Assembly (NCBI RefSeq): GCF_007097205.2 | Contig: NZ_VJYK02000007.1 | Span: 1 to 44,271 of the forward strand | Source of the DNA: Streptomyces alkaliterrae | Lineage (GTDB): Bacteria; Actinomycetota; Actinomycetes; Streptomycetales; Streptomycetaceae | DNA length: 44,271 nt | Direction: 5' to 3' | Part shown: positions 1 through 40,839 of the stretch, in pieces | Position numbering within the stretch: position 1 is the first letter of the stretch | How the letters are laid out: each line of letters begins with the position of its first letter | Notes under the pieces: model-generated | The model's input: the letters and a program-made list of their open reading frames with translations, nothing else | Databases searched by the model: none | Told to the model about the DNA's origin: nothing | Translations under genes and position numbers: made by a program

Positions 1-828
1 CCCTATGGCGCCCCGTCCGGCTACCCCGCCCCGCAGCCACCCGGTCACCAGGGATACCCGGGCCAGCCCGGCTACCCGGGGACCGGCGGTGTGCCAGGAC
101 AGGCAAGCCCGCCAGGGCCGCCGATGGCCCAGGGCCACGCCGGCTACGGCGTACCGCAGGGGGGCGGCAGCGGACTGGGCGTGACGCTGGAGAAGTACCG
201 TGAAGCGCCCAACGGCCAGCGGTGGACCCTCCAGAACTCCCAACTCGTCCGGGCGGACCTGGGGGTGGACGGCCAGCCGGTGCTCGCCCGGCAGGGCAGC
301 ATGGTCCTCTACCAGGGCAAAGCCGAGTTCAGCTACAAGGGCGCGGGCTTCCGCGGCAGGATCGTCGGCAACGCCACCGGGCAGGAGATGCAGCTCATGC
401 GCTGCACCGGCTCGGGCCAGGTGTTCTTCGCCGAGGAGGCCGCGTACCTGCACCCCATCGAGCTCCAGGGAGACGCGATCTGCGTCTCCGCGGAGAACGT
501 GCTGGCCTTCGACGAGTCGCTGCAGTACGAGGTGCGGCGTGTCGAGGGGCACGGAATCCCCGGCGGCGCGCTGTTCACCATGCAGTTCCACGGCACCGGC
601 ACGCTGGTGGTGAAGACGAAGGGCACCCCCGTCGTCCTGCCCGTCACCCCGGCCACCTACGCGGACGCCCAGGCCGTCATCGCCTGGTCGGCCGCCGCGC
701 AGGTCATCGTCACCAGCCAGGTGAGACTGCGCCGGCACGCCTACCCCGGCCACAGCGGAGAGAGCGTCAATCTCCAGTTCCGCGGTGCGCCGGGCAACTT
801 CATCGTCGTCCAGCCGTACGAGGTCTGA
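1..828 (+). CDS. AIM24 family protein (5' end outside window)
   Basis: This is the C-terminal part of an AIM24 (DUF124) family protein. The frame is open from base 1, and the first ~30 codons encode Pro/Gly/Tyr repeats (PSGYPAP, GQPGYPG), which look like a flexible linker, so the true start lies upstream. The folded region shows the family pattern: a GSM-type strand near the start, NVLAFDESLQYEV in the middle, a GTGTLVV strand, and a VVQPYE ending. AIM24 proteins are beta-rich; the name comes from a yeast mitochondrial protein, and the bacterial role is unknown. In some actinomycetes an AIM24 domain follows a TerD domain and a Pro-rich linker, so the missing part may be TerD-like; that is inference. 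It is followed after 11 bases by a second AIM24 gene and is probably in one operon with it. Confidence 0.85.
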   Translation, partial: PYGAPSGYPAPQPPGHQGYPGQPGYPGTGGVPGQASPPGPPMAQGHAGYGVPQGGGSGLGVTLEKYREAPNGQRWTLQNSQLVRADLGVDGQPVLARQGSMVLYQGKAEFSYKGAGFRGRIVGNATGQEMQLMRCTGSGQVFFAEEAAYLHPIELQGDAICVSAENVLAFDESLQYEVRRVEGHGIPGGALFTMQFHGTGTLVVKTKGTPVVLPVTPATYADAQAVIAWSAAAQVIVTSQVRLRRHAYPGHSGESVNLQFRGAPGNFIVVQPYEV

Positions 829-839
829 GGGAGCCCGTC

Positions 840-1523
840 ATGAACCAGCAGTCGATCGCGGGCTACGCCCCGACCCCGCCCGCCGCCCGTATGGAGACAC
901 ACGGAAGCAGCATTCTGAAGGTCGCCATGGCAAGCGGCCAGGACCTCTTCGCCCGCACCGGCTCGATGATCGCCTACGAGGGCTTCGTCCAGTACGAGCC
1001 CAATCCGCCGGCGATCCGCCGCATGGCCTCGCAGTGGCTGACCGGGGAGGGCGCCCCGCTGATGCGCTGCCACGGCGACGGCCTGCTCTATCTCGCCGAC
1101 TACGGCGCCGACGTGGTCGTGCTGCACCTCAACGAGGACAGCCTCTCCGTCAACGGCACCAACGTCCTCGCGTTCGACGCCCACCTCAACTGGGGTGTGG
1201 AACGGGTCAAGGGCATGGCCAAGTTCGCCGGTCAGGGTCTGTTCAACGTCGGCATATCCGGTACCGGCTGGGTCGCGCTGACCTCGCGCGGCACACCGAT
1301 CGTGGTGGACTGCGGACGCGGAGCGGACGAGACCTACGTCGACCCGGACGCCCTGGTGGCGTGGTCCAGCGGGCTGAAGATGAAGGGCAAGCGCAGCTTC
1401 AAGGCGTCCGCCATGATCGGCCGGGGCAGCGGCGAGGCCTACCAACTCGGCTTCTCGGGGCAGGGCTTTGTGGTCGTCCAGCCCAGCGAGGACAGCGCCG
1501 ACCGCCTGCGTGCGCGCGGCTGA
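840..1523 (+). CDS. AIM24 family protein, second of three
   Basis: A 227-residue AIM24 (DUF124) protein. The ATG at 840 follows a GAGGGAG ribosome-binding site that overlaps the stop of the previous gene. Family marks are TGSMIAYEGFVQYE near residue 40, NVLAFDAHLNWGVERV near residue 105, GTGWVALTSRG and the closing GQGFVVVQPSE. No signal peptide or membrane helix is visible, so it is probably cytoplasmic. It is co-directional and tightly spaced with the AIM24 genes on either side, so the three products are likely made together and may form a hetero-oligomeric beta assembly (inference). Sequence divergence between the three is large, which argues against a recent duplication. Confidence 0.85.
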   Translation: MNQQSIAGYAPTPPAARMETHGSSILKVAMASGQDLFARTGSMIAYEGFVQYEPNPPAIRRMASQWLTGEGAPLMRCHGDGLLYLADYGADVVVLHLNEDSLSVNGTNVLAFDAHLNWGVERVKGMAKFAGQGLFNVGISGTGWVALTSRGTPIVVDCGRGADETYVDPDALVAWSSGLKMKGKRSFKASAMIGRGSGEAYQLGFSGQGFVVVQPSEDSADRLRARG

Positions 1524-1539
1524 GGGGAGCAACGACAAC

Positions 1540-2337
1540 ATGCAGAGCCCGCTTTTCGCCCACACCGAGGTCCAGACCCAGGAGCGGTACGCCCTCCAGA
1601 ACGACAAGCTGCTGCGCGTCGCACTCACGGGCCACGAGGACGTGCTCGCCCGCAAGGGCAGCATGGTCGCCTACCAGGGCATGATCGAGTTCGACGGCGA
1701 GTACCAGAGCCCGAGCCAGCGTCACGCCCAGCACATGACCGGCGAGGTCGTGGAACTGATGCGCTGCTCGGGCCAGGGGGTGGTGTACTTCGCCAACCTC
1801 GCCCAGTCGGTGCACATCCTCGACGTCGACCACAACGGCCTGACCGTCGACAGCTCCTACGTCCTCGCGCTCGACTCCCATCTGCACTGGGACGTCATCA
1901 GCGTGGACAGCCAGTACGGAATATCGGGTTCGGGCAAGTACAACCTGGTGATCACCGGCCAGGGCAAGGTCGCCCTGATGACCTCGGGCCAGCCGCTGAT
2001 GCTCACGGTCACTCCCGACAAGTACGCCAGTGCCGACTCGGACGCCGTGGTCGCCTGGTCGACCTCCCTCCAGGTACAGCTCCAGGCGCAGACCAGCTCC
2101 TCGGGAGTCTGGCGGCGCCGCGGCAGCACCGGGGAGGGCTGGGAACTCAGCTTCATGGGCAACGGCTACGCGCTGGTGCAGCCGAGTGAACTCCTGCCGC
2201 CGCAGGGCGCTGTCATCGGGCAGGGCGTGCGCGCCCAGTTCGGCATGGGAGGACAGGGAGCCCACGGGATGAACCAGGGCAACGCCTGGGGCCACGGCGG
2301 CCCGGGCCACGGCCAGGGCAACATCTTCACCAACTGA
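1540..2337 (+). CDS. AIM24 family protein, third of three
   Basis: A 265-residue AIM24 protein starting at ATG 1540, 16 bases after the previous stop and behind a GAGGGGAGC ribosome-binding site. It carries the family marks RKGSMVAYQGMIEFDG, YVLALDSHLHWDV, a GQGKVALMTSG strand and GNGYALVQPSE. The last ~45 residues form a Gly/His/Gln/Asn-rich tail (AHGMNQGNAWGHGGPGHG), probably disordered. A Gly/Pro-rich N-terminal extension on the first gene and a Gly-rich C-terminal tail on the third suggest that low-complexity arms at the ends of the operon help assembly or surface interaction (inference). A strong hairpin follows immediately, so this is the last gene of the unit. Confidence 0.85.
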   Translation: MQSPLFAHTEVQTQERYALQNDKLLRVALTGHEDVLARKGSMVAYQGMIEFDGEYQSPSQRHAQHMTGEVVELMRCSGQGVVYFANLAQSVHILDVDHNGLTVDSSYVLALDSHLHWDVISVDSQYGISGSGKYNLVITGQGKVALMTSGQPLMLTVTPDKYASADSDAVVAWSTSLQVQLQAQTSSSGVWRRRGSTGEGWELSFMGNGYALVQPSELLPPQGAVIGQGVRAQFGMGGQGAHGMNQGNAWGHGGPGHGQGNIFTN

Positions 2338-2341
2338 GAAC

Positions 2342-2372
2342 GGTTGGGGCGCGGCCCGGCCGCGCCCCAACC
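2342..2372. terminator. Hairpin terminator between convergent genes
   Basis: A 14-bp perfect GC-rich stem (GGTTGGGGCGCGGC paired with GCCGCGCCCCAACC, 3-base loop) lies just after the third AIM24 stop and before the stop of the opposing NUDIX gene. It could serve both directions. No U-tract follows, as is usual in this lineage. Confidence 0.7.
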
Positions 2373-2421: not shown

Positions 2422-3012
2422 TTACAGGCGGTGGCGGGCGGCCGTCACCAGACGCAGTACGGAGTCGTCCGCGACGGCGGCGAGTTCGGCGAGGTCCGCC
2501 GGCTGCGTGTAGCGGTACCAGCGCAGCTCCAGGGACTCCTCGCTGACGGTCTCGGCCGCGCCCGGCGGTGCCAGCGCCGCGTACTGCACGTCGAGATGGA
2601 CCGCGCACGGTGTGCTGTGCCGGTCCAGCCTCACCGGTCCACCGGGCAGCAGGGCGAGCCCGTCGACGCCGGACTCCTCCGTCGCCTCGCGCAGCGCGGC
2701 GGCGGCCAGGGTCGCGTCCTCGGGCTCGCAGTGCCCGCCCGTCTGGAGCCACATCTCCAGCTTGCGGTGCAGGGTGAGCAGCACCCGTTCCCCGACCGGG
2801 TCGATCACCAGCGCGCTGGCGGTGAGATGACCGGCGCGGCAGGCCTTCCACATGCCGTCCGGATGCTCGTCGAGATGGTCCAGATAGGCCCGGCGCAGGC
2901 CGTCCTGCGCCGGGTCCGGGGCGGTCCACTCACGAAGGGTCCGCGCGGCGTCCGCGTGGAGGGGCCGCGCGCCGGCCGGGCGGGCGGGCGCGTTGTGTTC
3001 AGCGGGGTTCAC
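2422..3012 (-). CDS. NUDIX hydrolase
   Basis: A 196-residue NUDIX-fold protein, the family that cleaves nucleoside diphosphates linked to another group. The NUDIX-like block is GGHCEPEDATLAAAALREATEESG, with the characteristic REATEESG helix; the acidic residue expected before the helix is Asp and there is one extra residue compared with the canonical spacing. The GTG start at 3012 shares GTGA with the stop of the upstream zincin-like gene, so translation is probably coupled. An upstream start is unlikely because it would run through that gene. The substrate cannot be told from sequence. Confidence 0.85.
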   Translation of the reverse strand: MNPAEHNAPARPAGARPLHADAARTLREWTAPDPAQDGLRRAYLDHLDEHPDGMWKACRAGHLTASALVIDPVGERVLLTLHRKLEMWLQTGGHCEPEDATLAAAALREATEESGVDGLALLPGGPVRLDRHSTPCAVHLDVQYAALAPPGAAETVSEESLELRWYRYTQPADLAELAAVADDSVLRLVTAARHRL

Positions 3013-4526
3013 TTGGCGCTGTCGCCCTTGCCGCCGTCGTCTCCCGTGGAGTCTCCTCCGGCCTCGCCACCCGACGCGCCGCCGGATTTCCCGCCCGCCT
3101 CGCCACCGGCGTTTCCGCCGGGCCCCTTGCGCAGGTCCGGGCCGCTGCCGGCCGCGTCGCCGAGCATCCGGTCGAGCTCGGAGAAGTCGGTCTGCTCGCG
3201 GTGGACAAAGCCGTCCGGGTCGTCGAGGTCGTCGGCGGTCGGCAGCATGTCCGGGTGTGCCCACAGTGCGTCGCGGCCGTCCGTGCCCCGGGCATCGGCG
3301 AGCGAGGCCCACAGTCGGGAGGCGTCCCGCAGCCGGCGGGGCCGCAGCTGGAGACCGATGAGGGTGGCGAAGGTCTGCTCGGCCGGACCACCCGTGGCCC
3401 GGCGGCGGCGCAGCGTCTCGCGCAGCGCACCGGCGGACGGCAGGTGCGGTTCTGCGGCGGCGTGCACCACGGCGTCGACCCAGCCCTCGACAAGTGCCAG
3501 GGCCGTCTCCAGCCGGGCCAGCGCCGCCAGCTGCTCGGGGGTGTCCTCCGGCTGGAACATGCCCTGCTGGAGTTTCTCCTGGATCTCCTCCGGTCGGCTC
3601 GGGTCGAGCTGACCGACGACGTCCTCCAGCTTCTCGGTGTCCACCTTGATGCCGCGGGCGTATCCCTCGACCGCGCCGAAGAGGTGCGACCGCAGCCACG
3701 GGACGTGCGCGAACAGCCGCTGGTGCGCCGCCTCGCGCAGGGCGAGGTAGAGCCGCACGTCCCCTTCCGGCACGCCGAGGCCCTTGCCGAAGGCCGCCAC
3801 GTTGCCGGGCAGCAGTGCGGCCTTGCCGGCCGGGCCGAGCGGCAGACCGATGTCCGCCGAGCCGACGACCTCGCCGGCGAGCACGCCGAGCGCCTGGCCG
3901 ATCTGCGTGCCGAACATGGCGCCGCCCATCGAGCGCATCATGCCCAGCAGCGGGCCGGCCATCGCCTGCATCTCCTCGGGCAGCACGTCACCCATGGCGG
4001 TGCCGACCCGCTCGGCGACCGGGTCGACCAGGTCGCGCCAGACCGGCAGTGTCGCCTCCACCCACTCGGCGCGGCTCCAGGCGACGACGGAACCGGCACC
4101 GGAGGGCAGGGACGTCACGCCGTCGAGCCACAGGTCGGCCAGCCGGACGGCCTCCTCCACGGCGGACCGCTCGGCCGCGGACACACTGGCGTCCTTAGAG
4201 CCGTCGGCGGCACCCTGGGCGACGGTCTGGCGGGCGATCTCCTTGGCCATGTCCCAGTTGACCGGGCCGCCCTCGTAGCTGAGCATCTGGCCGAGCCGCT
4301 GAAAGGCAGCCCCGAGGTCGGCCGGGCCGCCGGCGCCACCGCCGAGCGAGCCGAACATGGCGGCCAGCGGGTTGTCCGCGCCGCCGCCGAAGCCGAAGCC
4401 GAACGGATCGGAGCCCTGGCCCGGGCCGTCGCCCTCGCCGCTGTCCTTACGGCGCTTGTCCTTGCCGCCTTCGCCGTCCTCCGGCTCTTCCGGCGGTAGG
4501 CCGAATCCGAATGGGATGTCACTCAC
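3009..4526 (-). CDS. Zincin-like (DUF2342/Zincin_2) protein with degenerate HExxH
   Basis: A 505-residue protein of the family annotated as 'zinc-dependent metalloprotease' (DUF2342). The GTG start at 4526 follows GAGGAAACCC. The N-terminus is low complexity: FGFGLPPEEPEDG, then a Lys/Glu/Asp-rich patch, then PFGFGFGGGADNP (residues 1-70). A helical body with many Ala/Leu helices follows, and the C-terminal ~40 residues are again Gly/Ser/Asp-rich. The place of the zincin HExxH motif reads R264-E-A-A-H268, so the first zinc-binding His is Arg. I therefore doubt that it is an active protease of the classical kind. It overlaps the downstream NUDIX gene by four bases. Confidence 0.75.
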   Translation of the reverse strand: MSDIPFGFGLPPEEPEDGEGGKDKRRKDSGEGDGPGQGSDPFGFGFGGGADNPLAAMFGSLGGGAGGPADLGAAFQRLGQMLSYEGGPVNWDMAKEIARQTVAQGAADGSKDASVSAAERSAVEEAVRLADLWLDGVTSLPSGAGSVVAWSRAEWVEATLPVWRDLVDPVAERVGTAMGDVLPEEMQAMAGPLLGMMRSMGGAMFGTQIGQALGVLAGEVVGSADIGLPLGPAGKAALLPGNVAAFGKGLGVPEGDVRLYLALREAAHQRLFAHVPWLRSHLFGAVEGYARGIKVDTEKLEDVVGQLDPSRPEEIQEKLQQGMFQPEDTPEQLAALARLETALALVEGWVDAVVHAAAEPHLPSAGALRETLRRRRATGGPAEQTFATLIGLQLRPRRLRDASRLWASLADARGTDGRDALWAHPDMLPTADDLDDPDGFVHREQTDFSELDRMLGDAAGSGPDLRKGPGGNAGGEAGGKSGGASGGEAGGDSTGDDGGKGDSAK

Positions 4527-4622
4527 GGGTTTCCTCGGATCTTCTGCGGTCGCGGATGGATCGCCCACACCGTTCGCGGGCGGACGGGAAGCGGGCACGC
4601 GGGTGTGACCGGCACTACCCCC

Positions 4623-8927: not shown

Positions 8928-11813
8928 ATGCCGGACCGGGGCTCAGGTGGCCCCTCCGGGCCACGGATCAGAGTCGGCCAGCCCTCCAGGCGCGCCAAGA
9001 CGCTGCTGATGACAGCAGGCGTACTGGCAGTGCTGGCCATGCTCTTTGTCATGTTCGCCGGGTTCTGGACCGACTGGCTCTGGTACCGGTCCGTCCAGTA
9101 CACCAACGTCTTCACGACCACCCTGTGGACGAAGATCGGCCTGTTCGCCGCCTTCGGTCTGCTGATGGCCGTCACGGTCGGCTTCAACATCTGGCTCGCG
9201 CACCGGCTCCGGCCGCCGCTGAGCGCGATGTCCCTGGAGCAGCAGAGCCTGGACCGCTACCGGATGAGCATCGCCCCCTTCAAGAAGTGGGTGCTCATCG
9301 GGGTCGCCGCGCTGGTGGGTCTGATCTCCGGTGCCTCGGCGGCCGGGCAGTGGCGCACCTGGCTGATGTGGGTGAACGGCACGCCGTTCGGCAGGACGGA
9401 CGCCCAGTTCAACAAGGACATCTCCTTCTTCACCTTCGATCTGCCGTTCTACCGTTTCCTGCTGAGCTTCGGCTTCGCTGCGACGGTGCTGTCGCTGATC
9501 GCCGCCGCGCTGGTGCACTACCTCTACGGCGGGCTGCGGCTCACCACGCCGGGCGCCCGCGCCACCTCGCAGGCGACCGGCCACCTGTCGGTGCTGCTCG
9601 GTGTCTTCGTGGCGCTGAAGGCGGTGGCCTACTGGCTGGACCGCTACGGGCTGGCGGTGAAGTCCAGTGAGATCCGGGGCACGAGCGACTGGACGGGTCT
9701 GCGGTACACGGACGCCAACGCCTACCTGCCGGCGAAGACGATCCTGTTCTTCATCGCGGCGATCTGCGCGCTGCTCTTCTTCGCCGCGCTGTGGCGCCGC
9801 ACGTGGCAGCTTCCGGTCATCGGCTTCGGCCTGATGGTCCTCTCGGCGATCCTGATTGGCGGCCTGTACCCGGCCATCGTGCAGAAGTTCCAGGTCCAGC
9901 CGAACGAGCAGGCCAAGGAGACGCCGTACATCGAGAAGAACATGAAGGCGACGCGCGAGGCCTACGGCATCGACGACGCCGACATGTCCGACTACCGGGG
10001 CACCACGCCGGACACCGAGGAGGAGAACGGCAGGCTGCGCGACGCCGTCGACGAGACGGCGAGCCTGCGTCTGCTCGACCCGAGCGTCGTGCCGCCCGCG
10101 TTCCGCCAGCTCCAGCAGGTCCGCGGCTACTACGGCTTCCCGGCCACGCTGGACGTCGACCGCTACAAGGACAAGGACGGCAACGAGCGCGACACGGTGG
10201 TCGGTCTCCGCGAGATCAACATCGAGGGCATCCCCGAGCGGAACTGGATCAACGACCACTTCAAGTACACGCACGGCTTCGGCATGGTCGCCGCCAGCGG
10301 TACCGACGTGGCGCCGGACGGCACCCCGGTGTTCAGCGAGAAGAACCTGCCGCCGGAGGAGACGCTGGCCGGTGACTACCAGCCGCGCATCTACTACGGC
10401 GAGCGGACGACCCAGTACTCCATCGTCGGCGGCCCCCAGCAGGAGCTGGACTACGCCGACGACGAGGGCGAGAAGACGTACACCTACACCGGCAAGAGCG
10501 GTGTCAGCATCTCCGGCCTGCTGAACCGGTCGGCGTACGCGCTGACGTTCGGCGAGCCGCAGTTCCTGTACTCCACGGCGATCGGCGAGGGTTCGCGGAT
10601 CCTCTACAACCGGACGCCCAAGGAGCGGGTCGAGGCGGTCGCCCCGTGGCTGACCATCGACGGCGACCCGTACCCGGCGATCGTGGACGGCAAGATCCAG
10701 TGGATCGTGGACGCCTACACGACGTCGAACGGCTACCCGTACTCCTCGCGCACCACGCTGGGCGACACCACACAGGACTCGCTCACCGACGGCCAGCGCG
10801 CGCTGATCGCCCAGCAGGACCGGGTCAACTACATCCGCAACTCGGTCAAGGCGACGGTCGACGCCTACACCGGTGACGTGAAGCTCTACGAGTGGGACAC
10901 CGAGGACCCGGTGCTCAAGACGTGGCGCAAGGCGTTCCCCGGCACGGTCGAGTCCAAGGACAAGATCAGCGACGCGCTGATGGACCACCTGCGCTACCCG
11001 CAGGATCTGTTCAAGGTCCAGCGTGAGCTGCTCCAGCGCTACCACGTGGACACCGCGAGCCAGTTCTACTCGGGCAGTGAGCGGTGGCAGATTCCGGACG
11101 ACCCGACGCACAAGGGCAACCCGGTGCCGCCGTACTACCTGAGCATGAAGATGCCGGACCAGGACGACCAGGTCTTCTCGCTCACGACGACGTTCAACCC
11201 GAACCAGCGTGAGACGTTGGGCGCCTTCATGGCGGTCGACGCGGACGCGAGAAGCGACGACTACGGCAAGATCAGAATCCTGAAGCTGCCGTCCAACACC
11301 ACGGTCGCCGGCCCGCAGCAGGTGCAGAGCAAGTTCAACTCCGATCCGACGATCGCCCAGCAGATCAACATCCTGCAACGCGGTGACTCCGAGGTGGAGT
11401 ACGGAAACCTGCTCACGGTGCCGTTGGAGGGCGGCCTGCTCTACGTGGAGCCGGTGTACGTCCGCGGTGCCGGCACCAACTACCCGCGTATGCGGAAGGT
11501 GTTGGTGACGTACGGCGAGCGGATCGCCTTCGAGGACACCCTGGAGGCCGCGCTCGACAAGGTCTTCGGCATCGAGGGCGAGCGGCCGTCGCCGCCGCCG
11601 GAGGATCCCGAGGACCCGGAGGAGCCGGGTGAGGAGCAGCCCGGCGCCACACCGCCGGCCACTCCCGACGAGGCGTTGAAGGAGGCCGCCGACGCGGCCA
11701 AGAAGATGGACGACGCCATGAAGAAGGGTGACTGGGAGGCCTACGGCAAGGCCTGGAGGGAGCTCCAGGACGCGCTGAAGGAGGCCGAGGAGGCCGCGGA
11801 CGCGGGCGACTGA
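8928..11813 (+). CDS. UPF0182 family large membrane protein
   Basis: A 961-residue UPF0182 protein. The first ~300 residues hold several membrane helices (for example ~25-45 [21 protein letters not shown], ~65-85, ~110-130, ~165-190, and later pairs). A large, mostly hydrophilic domain follows (~310-880), probably outside the membrane, with motifs such as [22 protein letters not shown] and [23 protein letters not shown]. The end is a Pro/Glu linker ([18 protein letters not shown]) and a charged helix. Function is unknown. I chose ATG 8928 to begin with MPDRGSGG as I recall for homologues; GTG 8907 or TTG 8916 in the same frame are alternatives, since no clear ribosome-binding site decides it. 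Confidence 0.85.
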
Positions 11814-11902: not shown

Positions 11903-11976
11903 CGCGGGGTGGAGCAGCTCGGTAGCTCGCTGGGCTCATAACCCAGAGGTCGCAGGTTCAAATCCTGTCCCCGCTA
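11903..11976 (+). tRNA. Initiator tRNA-fMet (CAT), copy 1
   Basis: A 74-base cloverleaf. The acceptor CGCGGGG/CCCCGCT leaves the first pair as a C1-T72 mismatch, the D arm is GAGC/GCTC, the anticodon arm CTGGG-CTCATAA-CCCAG, and the T arm GCAGG-TTCAAAT-CCTGT. The unpaired 1-72 position and the three G-C pairs at the base of the anticodon stem are the hallmarks of an initiator tRNA, not elongator Met. The 3' CCA is not encoded. A TAGTGT -10-like element begins 20 bases upstream of the tRNA, and a hairpin follows. Confidence 0.97.
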
Positions 11977-14294: not shown

Positions 14295-14368
14295 CGCGGG
14301 GTGGAGCAGCTCGGTAGCTCGCTGGGCTCATAACCCAGAGGTCGCAGGTTCAAATCCTGTCCCCGCTA
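14295..14368 (+). tRNA. Initiator tRNA-fMet (CAT), copy 2
   Basis: The 74 bases are identical to copy 1 at 11903-11976, including the C1-T72 mismatch, the GGG/CCC anticodon-stem base, the CAT anticodon and the lack of an encoded CCA. Flanking sequences differ apart from a few bases on each side, so the copies are kept identical by selection or gene conversion and do not come from a recent large duplication. Confidence 0.97.
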
Positions 14369-27882: not shown

Positions 27883-28941
27883 CTAGAAGTCGTCGTCGAA
27901 GGAGACCGAGCCCTCGACCGCGACCTGGTAGGCGGAGGCGCGACGCTCGAAGAAGTTCGTCAGCTCCTGCACGTTCTGCAACTCCATGAAGGAGAAGGGG
28001 TTCTCCGAGCCGAACACCGGCTCAAGGCCCAGCCGCACCAGCCGCTGGTCGGCCACACAGCGCAGGTACTCGCGCATCGACTCGGTGTTCATGCCGGGCA
28101 GCCCCTCCCCGCACAGGTCGCGGCCGAACTGCAGCTCGGCCTCCACCGCCTCCTCCAGCATGGCGGTCACCTGCTTGCCCAACTCCTCGTCGAACAGCTC
28201 GGGTTCCTCCTGGCGCACGGTGTCCACCACGTGGAAGGCGAAGTCCATGTGGCAGCTCTCGTCGCGGAACACCCAGTTGGTGCCGGTGGCCAGACCGTGC
28301 AGCAGGCCGCGCGAGCGGAACCAGTACACGTAGGCGAAGGCGCCGTAGAAGAACAGCCCCTCGATGCAGGCGGCGAAGCAGATCAGGTTGAGCAGGAAGC
28401 GGCGGCGGTCCTCCTTCGTCTCCAGCCGGTCGATGTTCTCCACCGAGTCCATCCAGCGGAAGCAGAACTGCGCCTTCTCCCGGATGGAGGGGATGTTCTC
28501 CACGGCGGCGAACGCCTCGGCGCGCTCGTCCGGATCGGGCAGGTAGGTGTCGAGCAGCGTCAGGTAGAACTGGACGTGCACGGCCTCCTCGAAGAGCTGT
28601 CGCGACAGGTACAGCCGCGCCTCGGGGGAGTTGATGTGCTTGTAGAGAGTCAGCACCAGGTTGTTGGCGACGATCGAGTCTCCGGTGGCGAAGAACGCCA
28701 CCAGCCGCCCGATGAGGTGCTGTTCGCCGGGGGAGAGCTTGGCCAGGTCGGCCACGTCGGAGTGGAGGTCGACCTCCTCGACGGTCCAGGTGTTCTTGAT
28801 GGCGTCCCGGTAGCGGTCGTAGAAGTCCGGGTAGCGCATCGGGCGCAGGGTCAGCTCGAAGCCCGGGTCGAGCAGGTTCCTGACCCGCTCGGCGGCGTTC
28901 TCACCGGCGGTCGGGGCGTCGGTCTCGACGGGGGTGTTCAC
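27883..28941 (-). CDS. nrdB: Class Ia ribonucleotide reductase, small subunit
   Basis: A 352-residue NrdB, the diiron-tyrosyl radical subunit. Metal ligands are visible: Asp88 (FATGDSIV), Glu119 and His122 (FEEAVHVQFY), the Glu in FAACIEGLFF, and Glu/His in RDESCHMDFAFH. Tyr126 lies four residues after His122 as in E. coli Tyr122, so a stable tyrosyl radical is expected. The C-terminal acidic tail (SFDDDF) would dock on NrdA. The GTG start at 28941 shares GTGA with the nrdA stop, so the subunits are translationally coupled. Confidence 0.95.
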   Translation of the reverse strand: MNTPVETDAPTAGENAAERVRNLLDPGFELTLRPMRYPDFYDRYRDAIKNTWTVEEVDLHSDVADLAKLSPGEQHLIGRLVAFFATGDSIVANNLVLTLYKHINSPEARLYLSRQLFEEAVHVQFYLTLLDTYLPDPDERAEAFAAVENIPSIREKAQFCFRWMDSVENIDRLETKEDRRRFLLNLICFAACIEGLFFYGAFAYVYWFRSRGLLHGLATGTNWVFRDESCHMDFAFHVVDTVRQEEPELFDEELGKQVTAMLEEAVEAELQFGRDLCGEGLPGMNTESMREYLRCVADQRLVRLGLEPVFGSENPFSFMELQNVQELTNFFERRASAYQVAVEGSVSFDDDF

Positions 28942-31301
28942 TGGCAGGCCTCGCAGGACTCGGGGTTCTCAAGGGAGCAGGCGACGGCGTCCTCGGCGGG
29001 CGCCGTCTGCTGGGTCGGCAGTTGGGCGGCGGCGGAGGAGCGGGCCGACTGGGCGATCCGGGTCGCCGGTCGCGACCGCAGGTAGTACGTGGTCTTGATG
29101 CCGCGCTTCCAGGCGTAGGCGTACATCGAGCTGAGCTTGCCGATGGTCGGCGCGGCCATGAAGAGGTTGAGCGACTGGCTCTGGTCCAGGTACGGGGTGC
29201 GGGCCGCGGCCAGGTCGATCAGCGCCCGCTGCGGGACCTCCCACGCCGTGCGGTACAGCGCCCGCACGTCCTCGGGCAGTCCGGGCAGCTCCTGCACCGA
29301 GCCGCCTGCCTCCCGCAGCGCCTGCCTGGTCGCCTCGTCCCAGCGGCCCAGCCGCTTCAACTCCTCCACCAGGTAGGTGTTGACCTGAAGGAACTCACCG
29401 CTGAGCGTTTCGCGTTTGAAGAGGTTGGACACCTGAGGCTCGATGCACTCGTAGACGCCGGCGATGGAGGCGATCGTCGCGGTGGGCGCGATGGCCAGCA
29501 GCAGCGAGTTGCGCATCCCGGTGCGGGCGATCCGCGTCCGCAGCGCCTCCCAGCGGTCCGGCCAGGTGGGCTCGGCGTCCGGGTAGTGGTCCGGGTGCAG
29601 CACGCCGCGCGCTGTGCGGGTGGCGGACCACGCCTCGTGCGGGCCGTGCCGCTCGGCGAGGTCGGCGGAGGCCTCGTAGGCGGCGAGCATGATCCGCTCG
29701 GAGATCCGGGTGGAGAGCGCCTTCGCCTCGGGGGAGTCGAACGGCAGGCGGAGGCGGAAGAAGACGTCCTGGAGTCCCATCAGGCCCAGGCCCACCGGGC
29801 GCCAGCGGGCGTTGGAGTTCCGGGCCTGCTCGGTGGGGTAGAAGTTGATGTCCACCACCCGGTCGAGGAAGGTGACGGCCGTTCGGACGGTGTTGTCCAG
29901 CCGCTCCCAGTCCAGAGTGCCGTCCGCGTCCAGGTGTGCGGCGAGGTTGACCGAGCCGAGGTTGCAGACGGCCGTCTCGCCGTCGTCGGTGACCTCCAGG
30001 ATCTCGGTGCACAGGTTCGAGGAGTGCACGACCCGGCCCGGTTCGGCGGTCTGGTTGGCGGTGCGGTTGGCGGCGTCCTTGAACGTCATCCAGCCGTTGC
30101 CGGTCTGCGCGAGGGTGCGCATCATGCGGGCGTACAACTGCCGGGCCGGCACCGACCGGACGGCCAGACCGGCGTCCTCGGCGGCCCGATAGGCGGCGTC
30201 GAACTCCGCCCCCCACAGGTCGACGAGCTGCGGCACGTCCACGGGGGAGAACAGCGACCACTGCCCGTCCGCCTCCACGCGGCGCATGAACTCGTCCGGG
30301 ATCCAGTGCGCGATGTTCAGGTTGTGGGTGCGCCGCGCCTCCTCGCCGGTGTTGTCGCGCAGCTCCAGGAACTCCTCGATGTCCGCGTGCCAGGTCTCCA
30401 GGTAGACGCAGGCGGCGCCCTTGCGCCGGCCGCCCTGGTTGACGGCGGCGACCGAGGAGTCCAGCGTCCGCAGGAACGGCACGATGCCGTTGGAGTGGCC
30501 GTTGGTGCCCCGGATCAGCGAACCGCGGGCCCGGATGCGGGAGTAGGAGAGCCCGATGCCGCCGGCGTGCTTCGACAGCCGGGCCACCTGGTGGTAGCGG
30601 TCGTAGATGGAGTCCAGCTCGTCCAGCGGCGAGTCCAGCAGGTAGCAGGAGGACATCTGCGGGTGCCGGGTACCGGAGTTGAACAGCGTGGGCGAGGACG
30701 GCAGGTAGGAGAGCGTGCTGGTGAGCCGGTACAGCTCGGCGACCTCGGCGAGCGCGCTGCTCTCGTCGGGGTCGGCGGCGTCCGCCAGGCCGCAGGCCAC
30801 CCGCAGCAGGAAGTGCTGCGGGGTCTCGACGACCTGGCGGGTCATCGGGTGCCGCAGCAGGTAGCGGGAGTGCACGGTCCGCAGGCCGAAGTAGCCGAAG
30901 CGGTCGTCCGCGCCCTCCGCGAGCGCCCGCTCGACGAGTGCGTCGAGCGCGGCCGCGTGCCGCCGGACGAACGCTGCGGTGGAGTCGGCGATCAGCCCCT
31001 CGCGGTGCCCGACGGCCACCGAGGCGGAGAAGGACTCCGCGCCCTGGCCGGCGGCCTCCTCGCGGATGGCGAGTGTCAGCAGGCGCGCGGCGAGCCGGGA
31101 GTACTGCGGCTCGTCACCGATCAGTCCGGCCGCCGCCTCGATGGCCAGCGACCGCAGTTCGGCCTCGTCCGAACCGGGGTGCCGGCCGCGCAGCGCGGCG
31201 GCGGCGACTCTGCCCGGCTCGGTCGCGGTCAGGTCGGCGGTCAGATCGGTCAGTGTGCGCAGCAGTGCCGCTGACACGGGCTCCGTGGGTGCGATGGTCA
31301 C
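28938..31301 (-). CDS. nrdA: Class Ia ribonucleotide reductase, large subunit
   Basis: A 787-residue NrdA that reduces ribonucleoside diphosphates. Active-site residues are present: redox pair Cys219 (MSSCYLL) and Cys446 (AVCNLGSVNL), thiyl Cys431 with Asn/Glu (SSNLCTEI), the Tyr pair in TTYYLRS, and the C-terminal shuttle Cys783 and Cys786 (CEACQ). The first ~65 residues lack a recognisable VxKRDG nucleotide-binding hairpin of the ATP cone; only the last part (AELRSLAIEAAAGLI..EPQYSRLAARL) resembles the cone's C-terminal helices. GTG 31301 was chosen with GAGGGAG upstream. The leader contains a cobalamin riboswitch and NrdR boxes. Confidence 0.95.
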   Translation of the reverse strand: MTIAPTEPVSAALLRTLTDLTADLTATEPGRVAAAALRGRHPGSDEAELRSLAIEAAAGLIGDEPQYSRLAARLLTLAIREEAAGQGAESFSASVAVGHREGLIADSTAAFVRRHAAALDALVERALAEGADDRFGYFGLRTVHSRYLLRHPMTRQVVETPQHFLLRVACGLADAADPDESSALAEVAELYRLTSTLSYLPSSPTLFNSGTRHPQMSSCYLLDSPLDELDSIYDRYHQVARLSKHAGGIGLSYSRIRARGSLIRGTNGHSNGIVPFLRTLDSSVAAVNQGGRRKGAACVYLETWHADIEEFLELRDNTGEEARRTHNLNIAHWIPDEFMRRVEADGQWSLFSPVDVPQLVDLWGAEFDAAYRAAEDAGLAVRSVPARQLYARMMRTLAQTGNGWMTFKDAANRTANQTAEPGRVVHSSNLCTEILEVTDDGETAVCNLGSVNLAAHLDADGTLDWERLDNTVRTAVTFLDRVVDINFYPTEQARNSNARWRPVGLGLMGLQDVFFRLRLPFDSPEAKALSTRISERIMLAAYEASADLAERHGPHEAWSATRTARGVLHPDHYPDAEPTWPDRWEALRTRIARTGMRNSLLLAIAPTATIASIAGVYECIEPQVSNLFKRETLSGEFLQVNTYLVEELKRLGRWDEATRQALREAGGSVQELPGLPEDVRALYRTAWEVPQRALIDLAAARTPYLDQSQSLNLFMAAPTIGKLSSMYAYAWKRGIKTTYYLRSRPATRIAQSARSSAAAQLPTQQTAPAEDAVACSLENPESCEACQ

Positions 31302-31446
31302 GGGGCGTGCTCTCCCTCGCTCGGCGTGGCCTGCGCGGGCGGGCGGGGGAGCGCGCACGTGACGGTCCGCACGGCCCGATGGCCGTACGGCGTGTCAAAT
31401 GGCGTCCCTCAGCCCATCCCACGAGACCCGGACGTCTTCGAAGGCC

Positions 31447-31545
31447 GCCGGCAGGTCTTCGGACTCGCGCCGGAGCCGTGTTCCGGCTCGGCGCACACCG
31501 TTGCGGGACAGTCCCGGACTCGCACCGGGTTCCCCTGCGTCAGCG
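31447..31545 (-). promoter_or_regulatory. Cobalamin (AdoCbl) riboswitch in the nrdAB leader
   Basis: On the minus strand the leader shows the conserved core of the B12 riboswitch: GGGAACCCGGTGCGAGTCCG, then GTCCCGCAACGGTG, a variable stem (GAGCCGGAACACGGCTC) and a near-perfect B12 box, AGTCCGAAGACCTGCC (31450-31465). It ends ~145 bases before the GTG of nrdA. Coenzyme B12 should lower expression, so that the B12-dependent class II enzyme (expected elsewhere) takes over when B12 is available. A stem with no U-tract downstream leaves open whether control is by termination or translation. Confidence 0.93.
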
Positions 31546-31554
31546 GCGAGGATG

Positions 31555-31601
31555 AGCATACATCTAGTGGCGCGGTGTTGACGCGCCCCCATATGTTGTG
31601 T
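31555..31601 (-). promoter_or_regulatory. Paired NrdR boxes upstream of the nrdAB leader
   Basis: On the minus strand ACACAACATATGGGGG (31586-31601) and CCACTAGATGTATGCT (31555-31570) resemble the 16-bp NrdR box and are separated by 15 bases, so their starts are 31 bp apart. This is the classic tandem spacing of NrdR sites. They lie just upstream of the riboswitch, over the likely promoter. NrdR represses nrd genes when dATP/ATP levels are high. Confidence 0.8.
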
Positions 31602-40445: not shown

Positions 40446-40839
40446 ATGTGTCGGCGCTGCCTGTGTCGGGCACCGCTTGTGTTCGAAAGTCGAACGCTGA
40501 CTGGGGGCGGTCGTGCGCTCGGCACGGCGGGCGAGAAGGCCCCGGACCCCGGAAAACACTTCGGGCCGCGGCGCCTGGGAGGGACCCTCAACCCACCCGG
40601 CACCGCAGCCCGGAGCGATCGGAGACCGGTGCGCGGTCAGGGCAGAGAGCGCATCGGTCTCGTTCCGCCCTCCTGTGCGGGGAGAGCAGAAGTCTTCGTT
40701 TCGATGCCATTCTGGACTAGACCAGGCGGATCTGTCCATGCCTTGAACAGAAAGGATCGGTGTGAGGGCCGTGCGGCCGCACCACCGGCCGTCGCGCCAG
40801 GTGCCGGCCGCGGGACCCGCACCGGCTAGGCTCGGCCCC
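40446..40839. other. 394-base intergenic region before the sensor kinase
   Basis: No gene is visible. It holds the dre-like palindrome at 40711-40726 and a TAGGCT -10-like element at 40827-40832 placed seven bases before the kinase GTG. A GC-poor stretch (TTCGTTTCGATGCCATTC) precedes the dre-like site. Short open frames here lack codon bias. Confidence 0.6.
40711..40726. promoter_or_regulatory. dre-like site upstream of the sensor kinase
   Basis: TCTGGACTAGACCAGG contains the 14-bp CTGGACTAGACCAG, one base away from the CTGGTCTAGACCAG core of the DasR consensus. It lies 129 bases before the kinase GTG and 325 bases after the dasD stop, beyond the das terminator. Confidence 0.6.

Follow-up and report, generated by a model that had tools for sequence, protein, structure and literature searches.

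The first genes on this contig raise the question of why a streptomycete should keep three divergent AIM24 genes side by side in one operon, and whether their products act together or apart. According to a 2019 paper, the function of every bacterial AIM24 member is unknown (PMC6677890). The window, meaning the whole stretch of 44,271 nucleotides that was analysed, corresponds to contig C667 in a Streptomyces-group draft genome of 769 contigs. The original prediction described three tightly spaced and strongly unlike AIM24 genes with low-complexity arms, and this description holds. All three genes (A1, A2, and A3; Table 1) exceed the AIM24 (PF01987) cut-off of 25.7 bits in a profile search, with 87.3, 131.1, and 105.7 bits, respectively, and their products are 32% (A1 and A2), 36% (A1 and A3), and 33% (A2 and A3) identical. 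Gaps of 11 bp (A1 to A2) and 16 bp (A2 to A3) separate the genes, each gap holding a GGGAG-type ribosome site, and both arms are present, as a Pro/Gly/Tyr linker in A1 and a Gly/His tail in A3. The hairpin that follows A3 is probably the 3' end of the operon transcript. Membership of the TIGR00266 equivalog was rejected for all three proteins, the scores of A1 (22.4 bits), A2 (48.6 bits), and A3 (33.3 bits) lying below the cut-off of 96.6.

Table 1. Coordinates of the AIM24 genes, their arms, and the adjoining features in the window
Feature	Position	Strand	Evidence
A1, C-terminal part of a TerD-linker-AIM24 protein	1..828	+	PF01987 E 1.5e-24; 5' end cut by contig edge
A1 linker, 3' part only (Pro/Gly/Tyr/Gln-rich, low-complexity)	about 1..180	+	sequence; linkers of relatives compared
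A2, stand-alone AIM24 protein, 227 aa	840..1523	+	PF01987 E 5.7e-38; predicted structure model
A3, AIM24 protein with Gly-rich tail, 265 aa	1540..2337	+	PF01987 E 3.5e-30
A3 tail (Gly/His/Gln/Asn), predicted disordered	about 2188..2334	+	pLDDT <50 at residues 217-265; tails of relatives
Hairpin with 14-bp stem, directly 3' of A3	2342..2372	+	-37.7 kcal/mol over 2330-2400, z -3.5; 0/200 shuffles as good
Nudix hydrolase, convergent neighbour, outside the module	2425..3012	-	PF00293 E 3.5e-10
Zincin_2 protein, neighbour, outside the module	3012..4598	-	PF10103 E 4.6e-141

Elsewhere in the window, a cobalamin riboswitch (31433-31562, minus strand) lies before a ribonucleotide reductase gene (28941-31358, minus strand), and the Streptomyces small RNA scr5239 (40571-40692, minus strand) adjoins a PdtaS-type histidine kinase gene. 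Two tRNA genes of equal Rfam score (11903-11976 and 14295-14368, both on the plus strand) stand on either side of a TPR protein gene.

The edge of the window is also the end of the contig, and A1 is therefore incomplete in it. The suggestion that a TerD-like domain lies upstream was borne out by extending the search past the window. Contig C119 of the same genome carries a TerD half at 9318-9935, just short of its own end at 9977, which shares 80% identity with the TerD portion in a relative and scores 132.5 bits against TerD (PF02342; cut-off 25.3), where relatives score 122-128 bits. A metallopeptidase-like gene with a HELAH motif lies just upstream of this half and corresponds to the YgjP/SprT-like neighbour found before A1 in relatives. 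Based on the position of the TerD half at the contig end and on the matching upstream gene, C119 and C667 very probably carry the two halves of one A1 gene, with the assembly break inside the linker. With the missing half located, A1 as an AIM24 protein lacking TerD was ruled out. Full-length A1 proteins of relatives measure about 536-614 aa and consist of TerD, a Pro/Ala/Gln/Gly-rich linker of about 150-220 aa, and AIM24. Among the best 80 of 521 confirmed relatives, TerD precedes the AIM24 part in the same frame at 56 loci and in a separate frame at four (L108, L120, L129, and L177), where the frame break sits in the linker; at the remaining 20 it is out of view, the record starting too late. 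In 19 of the 80 the record opens within A1, short of TerD.

The acidic loop of TerD proteins binds calcium. In A1, some 150 residues of the TerD domain align with TerD structures that have been solved, with a five-residue deletion in this loop; structures of the family include 2KXT/2KXV, from Klebsiella. The full loop, GDNxTGxGxGDDE, occurs in none of 56 A1 proteins and is present in a control TerD of the same genome (C163; L008/L009). In A1 the FDLDAS stretch is replaced by a (F/W)DISCFG-like one with a nearly constant cysteine, apart from one FDISAFG case and a few records that do not match the pattern. With the acidic loop absent, the TerD domain of A1 may have lost calcium binding.

The A1 linker and the A3 tail are both of low complexity and variable length, consistent with flexible arms that serve as tethers on a conserved core. 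Within the otherwise variable linker (that of L029:5901-7694 and others), the motif H-x-[AQ]-P-T-x-x-[AG]-P is conserved in most Streptomycetaceae; it matched as a strict pattern in 46 of 66 A1 records, a set in which L029 and L134 are the same genome and L030 is a fragment, and in none of the nine A1 records from Frankia and Micromonosporaceae. It is possible that this motif is a phosphothreonine or docking site. The A3 tails read in other Streptomyces are shorter and usually end in ...NQxNxW(N/S), the extra Gly/His stretch in the window being an extension of this strain's own. A tail core resembling GQFGxGQxG...NQ is shared with Frankia-type A3 proteins, in which it is enlarged to long Gly/His/Phe repeats and accompanied by a Gly/Pro/Tyr arm at the N-terminus.

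Of 101 genomes of the genus, 96 carry exactly one copy each of A1, A2, and A3, the other five lack all three, and none of the 101 retains only one or two of them (counted at E 1e-60, a threshold above the paralogue level). Two of the five genomes without the triplet are only about 80% complete (G001 and G050), and the other three (G008, G047, and G051) are 98-100% complete. In all 96 the genes share a contig and a strand and run A1-A2-A3, separated by 11-38 and 16-30 bp. The triplet is likewise kept in a scan of named genomes, all three genes being found at 78 of 80 loci in three families, the remaining two (L107 and L161) being cut by a contig end. These loci represent Streptomycetaceae (Streptomyces, Actinacidiphila, and Wenjunlia), Frankia, Parafrankia, and Pseudofrankia, and Dactylosporangium and Virgisporangium; as they are the best 80 of 521 confirmed relatives, distant cases are under-sampled. 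Outside Streptomycetaceae the A triplet is found in Frankia relatives and in some Micromonosporaceae. The surrounding genes change between lineages while the triplet itself is retained. Comparison with three Streptomyces relatives gave dN/dS values of roughly 0.15-0.24 for A1, 0.13-0.27 for A2, and 0.24-0.40 for A3, and the three genes are under purifying selection; the values of about 0.6-0.74 against a Frankia-type relative carry the caveat that base composition constrains the synonymous sites.

The genome holds a further AIM24 triplet, B1-B2-B3 (contig C118, L007 7861-9850, minus strand), with no TerD in the same frame. It occurs in constant order in 11 further Streptomyces and in six genomes of three other families, and in one relative it is followed by a MarR-type gene. 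Of 12 Streptomyces-group B3 proteins inspected by eye, eight terminate in a PRLPGQLGDLQRRFGL-like motif at the C-terminus; the four that lack it include that of the genome studied here. In a tree of 111 domains, A1, A2, A3, B1, B2, and B3 each form one orthologous clade with members from several families. The sister of A1 is A3 (97/87), that of B1 is B2, and B3 is very divergent, with the caveat that long-branch attraction may affect B2 and B3. The case set beforehand against the original prediction, a recent duplication in one species, is ruled out by the presence of the triplet in 96 of 101 genomes and by these cross-family clades.

AIM24 genes were found in 41 of 78 genomes of a class-wide sample. 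By hand count, the 34 AIM24-bearing genomes outside the genus comprise 12 with a tandem three, one with a pair (G072, of a different AIM24 subgroup), and 21 with scattered single copies only. For the fold, the predicted model of A2 (pLDDT 76, moderate) found by far its best matches in 1pg6 (Foldseek E 5e-11, Z 17.2, rmsd 5.6, 199 residues aligned) and 1yox (E 6.5e-10, Z 17.3, rmsd 5.1, 171 aligned). The only other match on a second look, 5dz9 (Z 2.7), was taken as noise. Comparison of the putative internal AIM24 repeats gave probabilities of 82% (R2 and R3), 26% (R1 and R2), and 4% (R1 and R3), which favours a common unit for the first pair, weakly for the second, and hardly for the third; R2-R3 and R1-R3 are near register, and the R1-R2 match is confined to the second half of the repeat. 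Based on two bacterial structures, the AIM24 chain has been described as three TRAP-like repeats and modelled as a homotrimer whose ring has a flat surface (PMC6677890). Yeast Aim24, for which a TRAP-like fold was predicted, was reported at about 400 kDa in the inner membrane of mitochondria (PMC3975624).

We infer, with a confidence of about one half, that the operon encodes an obligate heterotrimeric ring of A1, A2, and A3 (1:1:1, nine repeats) that bears a single TerD arm and a single Gly-rich tail. Each chain would contribute three TRAP-like repeats, so that three chains close a nine-repeat ring; in bacteria with a single gene the ring would be a homotrimer, and an ancient triplication would have produced three subunits that complete it only together. 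A1 would bear the TerD-family domain, without its usual acidic loop, on a long flexible linker, and A3 would add the disordered Gly-rich tail. The argument for a ring that needs all three is that the cluster has as many genes as the modelled ring has subunits, that the genes are inherited all or none, and that each has a separate ancient identity. Our confidence stays near one half because operon linkage alone can yield co-inheritance without contact between the products.

Such a ring would be an asymmetric scaffold, probably near the membrane, that holds one TerD sensor or adaptor arm and may act in a general Ter/oxidative stress response. The stress role is suggested by the TerD fusion, by the TerD neighbours of the triplet in Dactylosporangium, and by a published account of other TerD-type proteins of Streptomyces being regulated by stress (PMC3912134). 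The Dactylosporangium neighbours are two further genes with TerD domains, immediately upstream of the triplet in Dactylosporangium aurantiacum (L112 1063-4327). The genes upstream of A1 in Streptomyces relatives (L031 2508-7147) encode a WhiB-type regulator, an ABC1 kinase, a ThiF-type protein, and the YgjP/SprT-like metallopeptidase, the WhiB-type gene being possibly WblC/WhiB7.

The foremost alternative, a possible though tentative one, is that the operon encodes three separate AIM24 homotrimers with partners of their own, the TerD-linked one being a stress sensor and the others serving the same pathway unjoined. Three A-type homotrimers are possible because known AIM24 proteins self-associate: the published template model is a homotrimer (PMC6677890), and the Neurospora AIM24 protein EOP-1 interacts with itself by yeast two-hybrid (PMC13075794). 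Lone AIM24 genes are common across the class, and covariation between A1, A2, and A3 shows no block above background, at an effective depth of 28.6 and with a weak signal within the proteins as well. Only nine paralogue-specific positions are conserved in both clades, too few to point either way on an interface, and they are not concentrated in the end repeats; the covariation result likewise favours neither reading. Against separate homotrimers, however, stand the all-or-none presence in 101 genomes without partial loss, the near-constant number of exactly three genes in tandem clusters, and the equal gene number of the otherwise unlike triplets A and B.

That the genes are ordinary lineage paralogues, retained by dosage or chance without a joint function, is disfavoured and improbable. 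Tandem duplication is common, but every copy here is an old separate clade retained across families, the genes show purifying selection, and in none of 101 genomes is one copy lost on its own. It is very improbable that the ring is an RNA-binding regulator like TRAP with TerD as its signal sensor; the repeats are TRAP-like (PMC6677890, PMC3975624), but the eukaryotic AIM24 proteins studied target membrane or protein complexes and not RNA (PMC3975624, PMC6677890, PMC13075794). A shell or compartment, which the original prediction had offered beside a hetero-oligomer, would suit a set of three related units that carry flexible arms but is scarcely credible, as we found no evidence for it, the closest solved relatives (1yox and 1pg6) are three-repeat ring-type chains, no shell fold is among the significant Foldseek matches (non-listing being no proof against ring or shell families), and the neighbours scanned include no cargo-like partner gene that recurs in every lineage.

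Returning to the heterotrimeric ring, we consider a wider evolutionary reading somewhat less than evenly likely, namely that obligate AIM24 heterotrimers with nine-repeat rings arose in Actinobacteria, perhaps on two occasions (A and B), out of a homotrimeric ancestor, and that the A ring, with exactly one loop-less TerD arm and one low-complexity tail, would be an asymmetric stress scaffold unlike known AIM24 assemblies. Through the operon, three bacterial AIM24 members are linked with each other as well as with TerD, and the triplet, as a clean single-copy unit in genetically tractable Streptomyces that lends itself to deletion as a whole or one gene at a time, makes the need for all three subunits directly testable.

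The association of AIM24 with TerD is already in print: Anantharaman, Iyer and Aravind (2012; cited in PMC5822837) placed AIM24 genes near TerD genes and suggested an interaction. In the literature searched, mostly papers outside subscription and largely at the level of titles and the beginnings of abstracts, no account of the obligate triplet came up. Ter stress systems share the AIM24-TerD neighbourhood, but among the scanned neighbours of the Streptomyces triplet at L029 and L031 no TerB, TerC, or kinase/phosphatase partner was found. The N-terminal half of A1 aligns with the TerD family (PF02342; 2KXT/2KXV, 3IBZ) over the domain, but its acidic loop is deleted. TRAP has a repeat unit resembling that of AIM24 and, in the published modelling, both build rings (PMC6677890), whereas AIM24 has three repeats per chain. 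With the AIM24 family itself (PA3696, 1YOX; SpyM3_0169, 1PG6; yeast Aim24; plant PAWH1/2; fungal EOP-1/IDC4) the triplet shares domain and fold, and EOP-1 likewise has a disordered Pro/Gln-rich N-terminal arm ahead of its AIM24 domain (PMC13075794). In contrast to the solved bacterial structures 1YOX and 1PG6, which are single proteins, the triplet comprises three unlike subunits encoded in one operon, one of them fused to TerD.
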